From: Helicobacteraceae bacterium
GTDB taxonomy: Bacteria > Campylobacterota > Campylobacteria > Campylobacterales > Sulfurimonadaceae
Assembly: GCA_021163845.1 (NCBI GenBank)
Contig: JAGGTH010000110.1
Coordinates: 1 to 34,664 of the forward strand
Direction: 5' to 3'
Length of the DNA: 34,664 bases
Shown: one piece after another, positions 24,109 through 33,119 of the stretch
Position numbering within the stretch: position 1 is the first letter of the stretch
How the letters are laid out: each line of letters opens with the position of its first letter
Position numbers and translations under genes: made by a program
Notes under the pieces: generated by a model
Databases searched by the model: none
The model's input: only the letters and a program-made list of their open reading frames with translations
Told to the model about the DNA's origin: nothing

Positions 24109-25346
24109 AGAAAAAAGTCTATTTTAAGACCTTCGGATGTAGAACGAATCTCTATGATTCCCAAGTGATGATGAGCTCTTTACAAGAGTATGAGATCACG
24201 GAGAATGAAGAAGAAGCAGACGCAATTGTGATCAATTCTTGTACAGTCACCAATGGCGCTGATACCCATGTACGCTCTTATATCAACCACATAAAAAGCG
24301 ATGCTAAGATCTTTTTGACAGGATGTGGAGCGCATACAAAAGGGGAGTCTCTTTTGGCTGAGAAAAAAGTGCATGGGGTCTTTGGGCAAAGTGAGAAACA
24401 AAAGATCGACTTTATGCTTACTCAAGAGCAACCTTTTTATGATCCAGGAGATCTCAACCATATCGATGAGATGATCGTGGATGATTTTGTAGGCAAAAGC
24501 CGTGCGTTTATCAAGATACAAGAGGGATGTAATTTTCGCTGTTCTTATTGCATCATCCCTTTTGTGCGCGGGGATGCACGGAGTATGGATGAGGAAAAGA
24601 TCTTAGAGCAGATATCCAAACTCGCACTCAATGGTTTTGGTGAGTTTATCTTAACTGGAACCAATGTTGGAAGCTATGGACATGGCAGGGGTACATCCAT
24701 AGCGCGACTGATGAAGCGTATGAGTCAGATACGAGGTGTGCGACGTATCCGTCTAGGAAGTGTCGAGCCGATCCAGATCACAGATGAGTTTAAAGAGATC
24801 TTGGATGAGTCGTGGCTAGAGAGACATCTGCATATCGCTTTGCAACACACATCCCCTACGATGCTCAAGCTGATGAATCGTCGTAACGTATACAAACAAG
24901 ACAGAGAACTTTTTGAGTTTTTGGCCCAGAAGGGTTTTGCAATAGGAACTGATTTTATCACAGGGCACCCAGGAGAGAGTGAAGAGATATGGAAAGAAGC
25001 GATCCAAAACGCACAAGCACTTCCACTGACACATATCCACCCATTTAGTTACTCTAAGCGTGATGGCACTCCCTCAGCGACTATGAAACCTGAAGTAAAT
25101 GGTCGTATAGCAAAAGAGAGACTCCATGAGATAGAATCTCTTGTCAAAGCGAAAAATATTGCATTTCGAAAAGCCTCTCAAGCTCCATTAGAGGTACTTG
25201 TAGAGTCGCAAAAAGAGGGACTTTACCACGGCTTAGATCAACATTTTAACAAAATTGTGTTAGAGTCGAATGAAGATCTGCTTGGAAACTGGCTGAGTAT
25301 CGATAACTATGAAGTAAGAGAGGAGTACAACTATGCTAAAGTCTAA
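24105..25346 (+). CDS. mtaB: tRNA t6A37 methylthiotransferase MtaB
   Basis: MtaB is a radical-SAM enzyme that adds a methylthio group to t6A at tRNA position 37, giving ms2t6A. The N-terminal MTTase domain has cysteines in FGCRTNLYDSQ, INSCTVTN and LTGCGAH, which bind one iron-sulfur cluster. The radical-SAM motif is CNFRCSYCIIPFVRG (about residues 142-156). GTNVGSYG and GSVEPIQI are the SAM-binding parts, and the C-terminal about 60 residues form a TRAM-like domain. At 413 residues it matches MtaB/YqeV length and cysteine layout better than MiaB or RimO. It overlaps the channel gene and the AAA gene. Confidence 0.9.
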   Translation: MKKKVYFKTFGCRTNLYDSQVMMSSLQEYEITENEEEADAIVINSCTVTNGADTHVRSYINHIKSDAKIFLTGCGAHTKGESLLAEKKVHGVFGQSEKQKIDFMLTQEQPFYDPGDLNHIDEMIVDDFVGKSRAFIKIQEGCNFRCSYCIIPFVRGDARSMDEEKILEQISKLALNGFGEFILTGTNVGSYGHGRGTSIARLMKRMSQIRGVRRIRLGSVEPIQITDEFKEILDESWLERHLHIALQHTSPTMLKLMNRRNVYKQDRELFEFLAQKGFAIGTDFITGHPGESEEIWKEAIQNAQALPLTHIHPFSYSKRDGTPSATMKPEVNGRIAKERLHEIESLVKAKNIAFRKASQAPLEVLVESQKEGLYHGLDQHFNKIVLESNEDLLGNWLSIDNYEVREEYNYAKV

Positions 25347-26979
25347 AACCAATAGAAGAGTGCTTTATATTTCAGCGTTTGTCATCATCGCCTTAGTTCT
25401 TTTTGCGATATTTAGAGATAATGCGCAGAGTATCACCCTCAATCAGGCACAACATCTTTTAGAAAAACAAGGTGTGAAAGAGGTGATCGCTTCTAAAGAT
25501 TTCATTTACCTTAAAACAGAGAACGGACTCTATAAGATCGCATCTTCTCAGGTGACTCCAAAGATGTTTGTCAACCATAAGGTAGAGGTAGATAGTGGTT
25601 CAAGCACACTTTTATACATTCTTTTTTTGATGCTCTTTTTAGGGATTGCCTCTTTTGCATTTCGATGGTGGCAAAAAAATAACTCTGATGGGGAAGTGTT
25701 TAGATCTCAGGCTAAAAACACAGCGAGTGAACTTGAGATCAATGCGCCCGTTCAGGCAATTAAGAGTGATGTGACCTTTGAAGATATCGGCGGGATCTCT
25801 GAGGTGAAAATCGAGCTCGAAGAGATCATAGATTTTATGAAAAACCCTAAACGTTATAAGAGTTTTGGAGCGCGTATGCCACGTGGTGTCTTGCTTGTAG
25901 GGCCTCCGGGTGTTGGAAAAACGATGATAGCAAAGGCTGTGGCAAATGCAGCAGGTGTGCCGTTTTATTACCAAAGTGGGGCTTCATTTGTGCAGATCTA
26001 TGTAGGGATGGGCGCAAAGCGAGTTCATGAGCTCTTTATGGCAGCAAAAAACAATGCTCCCTCGATTATCTTTATCGACGAGATCGATGCGGTAGGGAAA
26101 AAGCGTGATGGCAATCGAAGTGATGAGCGTGAAGCAACACTCAATCAGCTTCTCACCGAGATGGATGGATTTGAGGGAAGTAGCGGTGTGATCGTTGTAG
26201 CGGCAACCAATAAGATAGATGTACTTGACTCAGCACTCTTGCGTGCTGGACGCTTTGATAGACGTGTCTTTGTAGAGCTTCCGACCAAAAAAGAGCGTGC
26301 TTCGATCCTTGGCAAATATTTGCAAAAAATTCCTCATGAAGTGGATGTACAGGCTGTTGCAAATATGACCGTAGGCTTTAACGGTGCGGCACTTGCAGCA
26401 CTTGTCAATGAAGCGGCACTCTTGTCACTGAGACAGCACAATTTTCAAGTGACTCTAGAGCATTTCCATCAAGTCAAAGACAAGGTGATGTTTGGGAAGA
26501 AAAAGCTTCAAATGCTCAATGATGAACAAAAGAAATATCGTATTACCTACCAAGCGGCAAAAGTGGTGTGTGCGACCTATTTTGATCTCCCTTTTGAAAA
26601 GCTTCTTCTCTCCAATGAAAAACTTACACCTGCTACGACAGAGCCACTTCTCAAACACGAGATAGAGTCTCGTATCAAGATGCTCTTAGCGGGAATTGCA
26701 GCGTGTTCTATTAAGTTTAATGAGCATTCAAGCAGTGCAAAAGAGGATCTCGATGAAGCCAAAGAACTGACGAAGAGTATGTGCTATGAATACGGAATGG
26801 GGGAATCTCTTATCGCTTCAAAAAACGAAGAAGAGATATTGATGGAGAAGCTCTACATCCAAACCAAAAAGCTTTTAGAGTCGATGCGTTCAGTGGTTGA
26901 TAAAGTAGAGCTTGTATTATCAGAGCGTGAGAGTATTTCAAAAGAAGAGGTCAAGAAGCATATCAATGAAATTTTTTAG
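25333..26979 (+). CDS. FtsH-like AAA+ membrane ATPase lacking the protease zinc motif
   Basis: The 548-residue protein has the FtsH layout. Two membrane helices (about 11-28 and 89-112) flank a small periplasmic segment. An AAA+ module follows, with Walker A VGPPGVGKT (about 194-202), the pore loop QIYVGMG, Walker B IIFIDEIDA, sensor AATN and the arginine-finger region RAGRFDRRV. The C-terminal region aligns with the M41 peptidase, but where HExxH is expected it reads TYQAAKVVCA, so the zinc-binding histidines and catalytic Glu are absent. The third-ligand position (AKEDLDEAKEL) keeps an Asp. It therefore probably unfolds or remodels membrane proteins without cutting them, or joins another FtsH in mixed hexamers. 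It overlaps mtaB and bioV by 14 bases each. Confidence 0.88.
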   Translation: MLKSKTNRRVLYISAFVIIALVLFAIFRDNAQSITLNQAQHLLEKQGVKEVIASKDFIYLKTENGLYKIASSQVTPKMFVNHKVEVDSGSSTLLYILFLMLFLGIASFAFRWWQKNNSDGEVFRSQAKNTASELEINAPVQAIKSDVTFEDIGGISEVKIELEEIIDFMKNPKRYKSFGARMPRGVLLVGPPGVGKTMIAKAVANAAGVPFYYQSGASFVQIYVGMGAKRVHELFMAAKNNAPSIIFIDEIDAVGKKRDGNRSDEREATLNQLLTEMDGFEGSSGVIVVAATNKIDVLDSALLRAGRFDRRVFVELPTKKERASILGKYLQKIPHEVDVQAVANMTVGFNGAALAALVNEAALLSLRQHNFQVTLEHFHQVKDKVMFGKKKLQMLNDEQKKYRITYQAAKVVCATYFDLPFEKLLLSNEKLTPATTEPLLKHEIESRIKMLLAGIAACSIKFNEHSSSAKEDLDEAKELTKSMCYEYGMGESLIASKNEEEILMEKLYIQTKKLLESMRSVVDKVELVLSERESISKEEVKKHINEIF

Positions 26980-28035: not shown

Positions 28036-28638
28036 TTAGAGTGGATGGCTTGCTTTGGCTCGTTGTTCTGTTTTTTTGTGACGCGGTTTTTTTGGTTTAT
28101 CTTTTGGTGGTGTTTGTTTTAACTTTGTATGAACAAACCCCTCAAGTTCCTCTTCTTGCATCTCACACTTCATCATATGTTCAACGCTTGCAAGTGCTGC
28201 TTCATCTTGCGGATCAACCAAAGCGATCGCCTCGCCTCTCTCATCGACTACAATCAAACGTTTAAAATAATCTGCTATCTCAAGTGGCAAGTCATAGCTC
28301 ACTACAACCTCAACACCCTCAAGTGTAAGTTTTTCAAAGATCTTGTCTGTAGTAATAAAAATACCGTTCTTTTGTGTATTAAACGTCGCTGCGACTTCTT
28401 CTATCTGCAAAGCTCTATGATTTCCATGAGCAGACAAAGCATCTATCTGTTTACTCGCGAGATACTTCACAAGCGCATCAGCTTTGCGTTTACTCTTCAA
28501 AAATAGCAAGATTTTTTTCTCTGAGAGAGACCCAAGAAGCTCTTCAAACATTCTATTCTTATCATGGTCTTGCACAAAAAAAGCTCTTTGTTTTGTACGG
28601 TTTCCTACGCTTATTTGGTCATAGTATTTTTTACTCAT
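28036..28638 (-). CDS. Stand-alone RecA2-like domain of DEAD-box helicase type, degenerate
   Basis: The 200-residue protein (ATG at 28638 with AGGAG 7 bases upstream) corresponds to the second RecA domain only of DEAD-box RNA helicases. Motif IV is seen in KILLFLKSKRKADALVKYL, GNHRALQIEEVAATFN precedes motif V, and motif V is reduced to FITTDKIFEKLTLEGVEVVVSYDLP, keeping TTD and YDLP but losing the R-G-LD part. Motif VI reads YFKRLIVVDERGEAIALV, shorter than and lacking the arginines of HRIGRTGR. A basic tail (KPKKPRHKK) could bind RNA. There is no N-terminal RecA1 domain: upstream is 56 bases, then a transporter gene. ATPase activity is unlikely; an RNA-binding or regulatory role is inferred. 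Confidence 0.72.
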   Translation of the reverse strand: MSKKYYDQISVGNRTKQRAFFVQDHDKNRMFEELLGSLSEKKILLFLKSKRKADALVKYLASKQIDALSAHGNHRALQIEEVAATFNTQKNGIFITTDKIFEKLTLEGVEVVVSYDLPLEIADYFKRLIVVDERGEAIALVDPQDEAALASVEHMMKCEMQEEELEGFVHTKLKQTPPKDKPKKPRHKKTEQRAKASHPL

Positions 28639-28663
28639 TGCAACACTCCTAAACTTTGTGCAA

Positions 28664-30670: not shown

Positions 30671-31354
30671 CTAGAACCATACCCTCAGCCCTGCTGTTAC
30701 GTATCCCTCATCAAGAGGATGAAACTCATCTGTATTTCCAAAGTTTTTACTCCACTCTATACCAATGTAGGGTGCAAACTCTCTTACAAATTCATATCTT
30801 AGCCTTGCACCAATACTTATGTTGGACAAACCTTTTCCTCTTTCTATATTGGCTGCATCTTTTGTGTAAAGCTCTGTGGACAAACTTGGTGATAAAATGA
30901 GTTTTTGAGTCAAAAGAGCTTCATACTCAGTCTCAAATCTAAAACCTATATTTCCGTCATCTGCGAGTAAAATCACAGCTCTTGTCTCAAAGAAATATGG
31001 AGCTAGACCTTGCATGGCAATCACAGCCCATGTCTTGTCTGATTCAGGCGTTTTGTCATAATCTATACCAAACTGAATATCCCAAAAAGGGGTAATAGCA
31101 CGACTGTAAACTAACTGGTTTTCACTCTCGGCATTGCCATTTTTTGGTTTTTCACCTTCACTATATAGATAGATCTTATCTATATCATATCCGACATAGG
31201 TATTTAGATCCCAACTTGTAACTTTTTCATCATTAAAGCGGTACTCAAGTTTTTCTGCCATAAAAGTAGCTCTTAGAGGATCGTCATTCATATCTCCAAA
31301 CAGAGGGAGTGACAAAACACTACTTAGCAGGCATGCTGTTAATAGATTTTTCAT
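30671..31354 (-). CDS. copB: Copper resistance outer-membrane protein CopB
   Basis: The 227-residue protein has a signal peptide (MKNLLTACLLSSVLSLPLFGD) and the beta-barrel pattern of CopB/PcoB. The markers are LEYRFNDEKVTSWDLNTYVGYDIDKIYLYSEG near the N-terminus, ITPFWDIQFGIDYD, LAPYFFETRAVILLADDGNIGFRFETEYEALLTQKL and the C-terminal RYEFVREFAPYIGIEWSKNFGNT, ending in VWF as outer-membrane proteins do. It is shorter than Pseudomonas CopB because the Met/His-rich N-terminal insertion is missing. It follows copA by 13 bases, so both are co-transcribed for copper tolerance. Confidence 0.87.
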   Translation of the reverse strand: MKNLLTACLLSSVLSLPLFGDMNDDPLRATFMAEKLEYRFNDEKVTSWDLNTYVGYDIDKIYLYSEGEKPKNGNAESENQLVYSRAITPFWDIQFGIDYDKTPESDKTWAVIAMQGLAPYFFETRAVILLADDGNIGFRFETEYEALLTQKLILSPSLSTELYTKDAANIERGKGLSNISIGARLRYEFVREFAPYIGIEWSKNFGNTDEFHPLDEGYVTAGLRVWF

Positions 31355-31367
31355 AATACACCTCCGT

Positions 31368-33119
31368 TTAAGTCACTACGACTTTTCTAAACATTCCTGC
31401 CATATGATAGAGCAAATGGCAGTGAAAAGCCCAAGCACCTTTGGCATCTACAGTAACACGAAAGCTTGTTTTTGAACCGGGTTGGGCTATGATGGTATGT
31501 TTTCTTGCTAGATGGTTCTCATCACCGGTCTCCAAATCACTCCACATCCCATGTAGATGCATAGGATGATTCATCATTGTGTCGTTTATGTAGGTTATTC
31601 TGAGTCTCTCTCCATAATGAAATTCCAAAGGCTTAGAATCGGCATAGTTGATACCGTTGATTGACCACATGTAACGTTCCATATTTCCTGTTAGATGAAG
31701 TATTATCTCTCTATCTGGGTATTTGTCATCTTTAGTCGAGCGAAGTGATCTTAAGTCTGCATAAGTAAGCACTTTTCTGTCGCTATCTCTTAGTCCTGCT
31801 CCTGGGTCATTGAGTCTGTATTGAGGATTTTTGGCTTTCATAGTTGTATGAGCACCCCATTTGACTTCCATCGGAGTAATAGGAATCTCTTTTTTTAGTA
31901 CAGGAACTTTCATAGGCATTGTCATGCCTCCGCCACATTTCATGGCGCTCTCTTTTGTCATGCCAGAGATCTCATCTTCCATTTCACTCATATTCATCCC
32001 CATATCGCTGTGGCTGAGAATAGGAAGTGCATCCATCTCAGGAACTGGAGCTTCAAGATTTTCATCATAGGTCAGTGAACCCACAGCGTAACCAGATCTG
32101 TCAAAACTCTGAGCAAATATACTATATGCTTTGTCCTCTTTTGGCTCTACAATAACGTCATAGGTTTCGGCGACGCCTATTCTAAACTCATCAATATCAA
32201 CGGGCTGGATATTGTTCCCATCAGCTGCAACGACTGTCATTTTGAGCCCAGGTATACGCACATCAAAAAAGGTCATTGCAGAACCGTTTATAAAACGAAG
32301 TCTGATCTTTTCACCATTTTTAAAAAGTGCTTTGAAGTGTGAAGCAGGAGTGTAGCCGTTCATCAGATATGTGTAAGTGTATCCTGTCACGTCTGAGAGA
32401 TCACGATCGCTCATAGCCATTTCATTCCACATTTTACGTTCATTAAAAGCGTTGAAAAAGCCTTTTTCTTTTACTTCTGAAACAAAATCACCGACGGTTC
32501 TTTGTTTGAAGTTGTAGTATTCACCCATGATTTTCAGTTTTCTATATATGCTGGCTGGTTTTTCATCAGACCAGTCAGAGAGAAGCACCACATAATCTCG
32601 GTCAAATTGGTAAGGATCAGGCTCAATAGGGTCGATAACCATTGCTCCGTACACTCCTGTTTGTTCTTGAAAACCTGAGTGAGAGTGGTACCAATATGTT
32701 CCGCTTTGCTGGATTTTAAACTTATATGTAAAAGTCTCTCCAGGTTTGATACCCTCAAAACTTATATTAGGTACTCCGTCCATCTGCGTAGGTAAAATAA
32801 TACCGTGCCAATGAATTGAAGAGTCTTCTTTTAGATGGTTTGTAACATGGATGGTTACGTCCTGACCCTCTTTAAGCCTGAGAATAGGACCGGATATCTG
32901 AGCATTTACCGTAGTCGCCATAGCGGGTGTTCCCGTAATGTTTACGGGAGTGTAGGCAATATCGAGAAAAATTTCATCACCGCTTAAAACACGGGATTTA
33001 TCAAAATCGCGAACCTCATCTTTTGCATGAAGATCAACAATACCTGACACTGCTACAGAAGCCAAAGCTACACCCTTGATAAATTGACGTCTGCTGAGTT
33101 TTGAAATATGTGTAATCAT
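31368..33119 (-). CDS. copA: CopA-type multicopper oxidase
   Basis: The periplasmic Cu(I) oxidase of 583 residues is exported folded by the Tat system (SRRQFIKGVALASVAVSG, twin arginines at about residues 10-11). The four copper-binding blocks are present: SIHWHGII, WYHSHSG, HPMHLHGMW and HCHLLYHMAGM, which supply the T2/T3 trinuclear cluster and the T1 Cys-His-Met site. A methionine-rich stretch at about 375-405 (DMGMNMSEMEDE, KCGGGMTMPMKV) is the usual CopA/CueO-type Cu(I) entry region. It is followed by copB. No CopRS two-component genes lie in the window. Confidence 0.92.
   Translation of the reverse strand: MITHISKLSRRQFIKGVALASVAVSGIVDLHAKDEVRDFDKSRVLSGDEIFLDIAYTPVNITGTPAMATTVNAQISGPILRLKEGQDVTIHVTNHLKEDSSIHWHGIILPTQMDGVPNISFEGIKPGETFTYKFKIQQSGTYWYHSHSGFQEQTGVYGAMVIDPIEPDPYQFDRDYVVLLSDWSDEKPASIYRKLKIMGEYYNFKQRTVGDFVSEVKEKGFFNAFNERKMWNEMAMSDRDLSDVTGYTYTYLMNGYTPASHFKALFKNGEKIRLRFINGSAMTFFDVRIPGLKMTVVAADGNNIQPVDIDEFRIGVAETYDVIVEPKEDKAYSIFAQSFDRSGYAVGSLTYDENLEAPVPEMDALPILSHSDMGMNMSEMEDEISGMTKESAMKCGGGMTMPMKVPVLKKEIPITPMEVKWGAHTTMKAKNPQYRLNDPGAGLRDSDRKVLTYADLRSLRSTKDDKYPDREIILHLTGNMERYMWSINGINYADSKPLEFHYGERLRITYINDTMMNHPMHLHGMWSDLETGDENHLARKHTIIAQPGSKTSFRVTVDAKGAWAFHCHLLYHMAGMFRKVVVT

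Follow-up and report, generated by a model that had tools for sequence, protein, structure and literature searches.

A gene on the reverse strand at positions 28036–28638 of the window, the whole 34,664-nucleotide stretch of DNA analysed here, encodes a stand-alone RecA2 domain with a basic tail, a 'pseudo-helicase lobe' probably derived from a DEAD-box RNA helicase and hereafter called the short form. The short form is a conserved family under purifying selection, not a dying gene, and its distribution is nested within that of one full-length DEAD-box helicase (the C46-type helicase), a link that survives phylogenetic correction. We give a probability of about one half to the reading that the short form is a catalytically dead, non-enzymatic accessory of the C46-type helicase, probably acting on ribosomal ribonucleoproteins (RNPs).

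Gene and predicted fold

The frame is open over 200 amino acids plus a stop, and a Shine–Dalgarno AGGAG (28646–28650, reverse strand) lies 7 nt upstream of its ATG, in agreement with the strong ribosome site and full-length frame described in the first-pass annotation. A mechanically called open reading frame starts instead at a GTG 23 codons upstream of the ATG; the ribosome site belongs to the ATG. The gene begins 56 bases past the stop of a same-strand CitMHS/TrkA_C transporter gene and is flanked on the other side by a convergent MoCF-domain gene, and promoter and terminator scans around it returned chance-level matches only.

The protein begins at RecA2 and consists of this single domain. 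Helicase_C (residues 27–127, E = 8e-11) is the sole Pfam match above cut-off, with a weak match to Utp25_C (E = 0.0023) below that model's own cut-off, and the NCBIfam DEAD-box helicase models (RhlE2, RhlE1, DbpA and CshA) match through their C-terminal half only and far under their cut-offs, none of the helicase equivalog cut-offs being reached (best 68.7 bits versus 925 for RhlE2). RecA1, Walker A and the DEAD box are absent from the window protein, and neither DEAD nor GxGK[TS] occurs in any of the 52 distinct family members; the gene does, as had been noted, encode the C-terminal helicase lobe alone. An AlphaFold2 model built from a 41-sequence alignment (mean pLDDT 88.4, pTM 0.80; residues 1–170 mostly >90, tail low) gives a RecA2 fold, the result that the first-pass annotation had proposed to look for, and searches with this model by Foldseek and VIA-align returned DEAD-box RecA2 domains, the best being that of YxiN (Z = 23.6, rmsd 1.5, 152 aligned residues), with those of DbpA and SrmB next (Z about 22–23). 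The lobe is thus predicted to be intact as a fold. Compared with the RecA2 domains of YxiN/DbpA, SrmB, CshA and RhlE, the window protein has the same fold over residues 5–169 (Z 22–24) but is without RecA1, is altered in motifs IVa, V and VI, and carries its own N-terminal signature and KKPRHKK tail.

Motifs lost and retained

Motifs were compared between the 52 distinct short members and 21 full-length helicase relatives (coordinates below are on the reverse strand). The N-terminal signature KKYYDxxSVGxRTxQ (residues 3–17, 28588–28632) is near-invariant among the 52 and, apart from Q17, absent from the 21 full-length proteins. In the motif IV region, KSKRKAD (residues 48–54, 28477–28497), K50 and A53 are invariant, the motif IV lysine being retained in 52/52 members. 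The motif IVa region, HGNHRALQI (residues 71–79, 28402–28428), keeps HGN, has mostly lost its glutamine and has lost its arginine entirely (0/52 short members versus 21/21 full-length relatives). Motif V is degenerate (TTDKIFEKLTL, residues 96–106, 28321–28353), reading 'TDKIFEKLTLE' in the window protein versus 'TDxAARGLD' in relatives, with the threonine kept and the arginine and glycine lost in all 52 members, and it is followed by an intact YDLP (residues 115–118, 28285–28296). Motif VI (YFKRLIVVDERG, residues 124–135, 28234–28269) reads 'KRLIVVDERG' versus 'HRIGRTGRAG' in relatives: its histidine is lost in 52/52, and neither arginine-finger position holds an arginine in any short member, whereas both do in 21/21 full-length relatives; the last of these positions is glutamate in 47/52 short members. 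The basic tail motif KDKPKKPRHKK (residues 179–189, 28072–28104) is conserved in a region of low model confidence, with KKxRH in 49/52 members and KKPRH in 46/52. Net charge in the window protein is +9 over tail residues 171–200 versus −6 over residues 1–170, and in 42/52 members, those measured, the tail window is net +7 to +12, alongside an acidic core. Further elements of the family signature are GNH(R), ITTxxI, DLP, YFxxLxxVDExG and the KKPRHK tail, and these features, shared by 52 distinct members, are far from chance.

The kept segments (motif IV region, TTD and YDLP), the eroded motifs V and VI and the basic tail had all been recognized in the window protein beforehand, and the motif erosion now extends to the whole family. 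The accompanying statement that the arginines needed for ATP hydrolysis are missing holds for the second and third motif VI arginines and also for that of motif IVa, but not for the first motif VI arginine, which is retained in 39/52 members, the window protein among them. In DEAD-box structures, the motif IVa arginine and the motif V and VI residues lost here serve ATP hydrolysis and lobe–lobe contact, the IVa arginine also contacting RNA, and the RNA face includes the positions of motif IV, HGN and the motif V threonine. ATP hydrolysis by the short form is very unlikely because the hydrolysis and lobe-contact residues are lost family-wide; RNA-dependent ATPase and unwinding activities are expected to be absent, and ATP-independent RNA binding is plausible.

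A conserved family in Campylobacterota

A first search in 60 relatives added 13 short members from 12 genomes, all well separated from the full-length helicases. Within Sulfurimonas, the genus of the window, 47/135 genomes carry the short form (bits ≥253), not counting three more that were matched by full-length helicases only (bits ≤131), and a set of 397 genomes sampled evenly from Campylobacterota includes 13 carriers (bits ≥234; next best 122). The profile search across the phylum that had been proposed as a check therefore finds the form conserved. Named records with the short form are mostly from Sulfurimonas, with a few from Sulfurospirillaceae, Sulfurovaceae, Arcobacter and other Campylobacterota assemblies, and an alignment-based contig scan found 40 loci where a single-sequence scan found none. 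After exclusion of ten duplicates and of one locus split in two frames (L070), 52 distinct members of 179–248 amino acids remain; all have intact frames and form a single clade (SH-aLRT 100), with dN/dS of 0.08–0.25 in 44 pairs above 70% identity. The Sulfurospirillaceae members nest among those of Sulfurimonas in this tree, pointing to transfer.

The first-pass annotation had held that a lack of homologues together with a helicase relic nearby would mark a decaying gene; homologues occur in 47/135 genus genomes, and none of the 11 PF00270 (RecA1) matches in the window's own genome lies on the window contig (C16). Low dN/dS and intact frames likewise differ from what is expected of a pseudogene.

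Some short-form loci are irregular. The excluded locus (L070, 5950–6612) is a related short form split between two frames, through either disruption of the gene or faulty assembly, and one genome (G025) has two diverged copies about 2.3 kb apart (L026, 7193–7846 and 10110–10748), while another (G445) has two copies on one contig. A phage or defence origin is unsupported: a viral-contig scan found no relative, plasmid matches were two full-length-type helicases at 28–30% identity, PHROGs gave no match and PADLOC gave weak helicase matches only.

Genomic neighbours

Close same-strand neighbours were surveyed at 45 distinct short-form loci. A Uup-like ABC-F ATPase lies 2–6 bp downstream at 7/45 loci, all closely related and in one clade; an RlmI-like 23S rRNA methyltransferase lies 5–11 bp upstream at two loci and within two open reading frames at four; and a YcaO factor for S12 overlaps the short form by one base at two loci. 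Other same-strand neighbours include EF-P (two loci), ThiI, HrpB and an RNase_T exonuclease (one locus each). Translation genes are a minority among the immediate neighbours, many other neighbours are unrelated (a transporter, an esterase, response regulators and sensor proteins), and no conserved operon was found over the short-form loci, the neighbours varying by clade with no single one family-wide. The C46-type helicase, in the window's own genome, lies 122 bp after rpsU. Taken together, the neighbours of the short form and of this helicase lean towards a possible ribosomal role. Binomial figures for neighbour enrichment were set aside, because the background rates in them were guesses and the list was compiled by hand.

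At three loci (L253, L255 and L260 in genomes G003, G010 and G029), the C46-type helicase overlaps an opposite-strand YcaO-like protein by 4 bases, and this protein resembles, by eye, the S12 YcaO that adjoins the short form elsewhere. ADP-ribosylglycohydrolases (PF03747) stand directly beside the short form or the C46-type helicase at several loci (L026, 8977–10050; L049; L051; L068, 4679–5926; L248, 8982–10205). One subtype of these enzymes, chosen post hoc from bit scores, has the short form in 23/27 of its carriers (Fisher's exact test, P = 2e-9), an association that fails phylogenetic correction (P = 0.2–0.3) and was rejected.

Co-occurrence with the C46-type helicase

The window's own genome encodes four full-length DEAD-box RNA helicases. 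The top-scoring of these for the window protein (28% identity) is a 412-amino-acid protein on contig C46, closest to CshA, RhlE and DbpA models, whose orthologues we call C46-type (E ≤ 1e-110 in the genus, E ≤ 1e-105 in the phylum). In the phylum sample of 397 genomes, a C46-type helicase is present in 13/13 short-form carriers versus 63/384 non-carriers (Fisher's exact test, P = 1.9e-10, uncorrected), and in the 135 genus genomes it is present in 40/47 carriers versus 33/88 non-carriers (P = 8e-8). Of the seven genus carriers missed, one (G443) has a contig-edge C46-type fragment of 74% identity, on which it was later scored helicase-positive, and the six in which none was found (G017, G461, G470, G488, G502 and G504) are all 68–88% complete. 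Among the 76 near-complete genus genomes placed on the gyrB tree, the helicase occurs in 29/29 carriers versus 20/47 non-carriers, and near-complete genomes of 2.0–2.4 Mb give 16/16 versus 18/40 (P = 5.7e-5). The short form is missing from 20/49 near-complete genomes that have the helicase; thus, the helicase does not need the short form.

The species tree was of gyrB alone and covered 114 genomes, leaving out 16 genus genomes with no gyrB match and five with gyrB fragments; on it, the short form and the C46-type helicase each undergo 23 or more changes. Among 20 independent pairs of these 114 genomes that differ in the short form, the helicase changed the same way as the short form in 8.9 and the opposite way in 0.2 (median P = 0.0039), and in 15 pairs from the 76 near-complete genomes the values were 6.2 and 0.0 (median P = 0.031). 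The paired test found no link for two control traits, the window's multicopper oxidase gene (1.8 versus 2.3) and genome size (2.1 versus 2.2). The DbpA-like helicase of the window's own genome was uninformative as a control because it is near-universal (120/135 genus genomes). Among 60 near-complete genomes without the ADP-ribosylglycohydrolase subtype described above, C46-type helicases are present in 16/16 carriers versus 18/44 non-carriers, with a non-significant paired median P of 0.125. A mirror-tree comparison of the short form and the C46-type helicase given gyrB (20 genomes, omitting G018, in which the helicase was not found in frame) yielded a partial r of 0.23 (Mantel P = 0.0066), a residual co-divergence that is weak but present.

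The two genes are physically linked, at 1.3–6.7 kb, in three genomes: G175, where the C46-type helicase, a DUF4010 protein, the short form and the S1-domain protein Tex occupy one strand within 5.3 kb; G407 (2.8 kb); and G390 (6.7 kb). Linkage was thus seen in 3/13 phylum-sample genomes and 1/40 genus genomes, and in the other carriers with compared coordinates the genes are not close. A binomial figure for linkage was set aside for its use of a rounded genome size.

Interpretation and alternatives

Near-exclusive occurrence in C46-type genomes suggests the short form as a helper or regulator of that helicase, and the most economical account is an accessory made from a dead lobe and kept solely in genomes that have its full-length partner; it may act by binding that partner, the RNA they share or both. 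The retained nucleic-acid face of RecA2 (motif IV lysine, HGN and motif V threonine), together with the KKPRHKK tail, would hold RNA or a ribosomal RNP without ATP, and the short form would thereby recruit, position or restrain the C46-type helicase at this substrate. That the substrate is ribosomal is suggested by the operon-like neighbours ABC-F, RlmI-like, YcaO for S12, EF-P, ThiI and Tex; both RNA binding and helicase contact are what we infer for the short form. The earlier suggestion of a helicase lobe turned RNA-binding adaptor or helicase regulator fits the strict co-occurrence with one full-length helicase as well as the family-wide loss of the arginine fingers and the conserved basic tail, with RNA binding and regulation themselves at the level of prediction. 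More tentatively, and at somewhat less than even odds, the two proteins may form a two-component DEAD-box system in which a full-length helicase is paired with a dedicated dead RecA2 paralogue, charge-reversed at the arginine-finger site, that works in trans, either on the helicase itself or on the ribosomal substrate of that helicase.

An alternative interpretation is that the short form binds RNA or RNPs (rRNA or ribosomes) on its own, with no direct helicase partner, and shares merely a pathway with the C46-type helicase. The strongly charged tail over an acidic core in the 42/52 members measured, the retention of RNA-face residues alongside loss of ATP and interdomain residues, and the varied translation neighbours are all consistent with this. 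We consider it rather unlikely, and by itself it leaves unexplained the absence of any near-complete carrier without the helicase (0/29) and the three linked loci.

Passive co-occurrence, in which the short form arose beside the helicase or transfers with it and has an unrelated function, would make the association historical. The C46 copy is the closest full-length helicase in the window's own genome (28% identity), the genes are linked in three genera, and the nesting of Sulfurospirillaceae members among Sulfurimonas points to transfer; part of the correlation may reflect an origin of the short form from the C46-type helicase or joint transfer of the two. Descent from this helicase is not established by the RecA2 tree, which does not settle the sister full-length clade of the family. 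However, the two genes are far apart in most carriers, and the paired contrasts run in the same direction with almost no counter-examples; we consider a purely historical association unlikely.

Improbable, in our view, is a competitive or trans-acting regulator in which the dead lobe docks on the C46-type helicase, at RecA1 or a partner surface, to block or adjust the ATPase activity of that helicase. The conserved arginine-to-glutamate reversal at the arginine-finger position (47/52), the nested co-occurrence and the weak residual co-divergence would suit such a role, but the motifs normally facing RecA1 and ATP (the IVa arginine, V and VI) are those lost, and ordinary lobe–lobe docking is therefore unlikely. 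Decay of a full-length helicase, which the lost catalytic motifs and the related locus split between two frames might suggest, is already refuted for the family: its 52 distinct members are all intact and fall in a single clade with dN/dS of 0.08–0.25, they share an N-terminal signature and a tail peculiar to the family, and the window contig has no RecA1 relic.

Relation to known systems

In the literature searched, the clearest pseudohelicase is Utp25, a DEAD-box-like protein that belongs to the SSU processome in yeast and acts in ribosome assembly without requiring its helicase motifs (PMC9539457). Like a pseudohelicase of this kind, the short form combines a helicase fold with loss of catalytic motifs and a gene under selection; Utp25, however, has both RecA-like domains and is eukaryotic, whereas the short form is a single lobe from Campylobacterota. 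RraA reportedly binds SrmB at its RecA2 lobe. It has no enzymatic activity and a proposed role in regulating DEAD-box helicases of bacteria (PMC3814787). Like the short form it would be a small, non-enzymatic candidate regulator, but it is trimeric and not a helicase paralogue. A possible functional setting is offered by RhpA of Helicobacter pylori, a DEAD-box helicase from Campylobacterota that is linked to ribosomes and to the maturation of rRNA in passages of PMC5874925 that make no mention of RecA2-only proteins; unlike the short form, RhpA is described there as a full-length, active helicase.

Searches of the open-licence literature on Sulfurimonas DEAD-box proteins, RecA2-only bacterial proteins and bacterial pseudoenzyme helicases found no description of the short-form family. 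If the two-component reading is true, the short form would represent a pseudohelicase in bacteria and also a cofactor that derives from a lobe of the kind of enzyme it serves. DEAD-box helicases have many regulatory partners, and one that is itself a dead version of their own second lobe would be unusual in bacteria; strict co-occurrence names the C46-type as the helicase for testing. We caution that such proteins should neither be annotated as helicases nor dismissed as fragments.

Other features of the window

An FtsH-like AAA+ protein is encoded on the forward strand at 25333–26979; an HExxH zinc motif is not visible in its sequence, and it looks like a protease-dead FtsH paralogue, presumably of the sort known from Helicobacter (HP0286). 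On the reverse strand at 30671–33119, CopB (PF05275) adjoins a multicopper oxidase-like gene as a copper-resistance pair that, judged by the oxidase, is present in 25/135 genus genomes.
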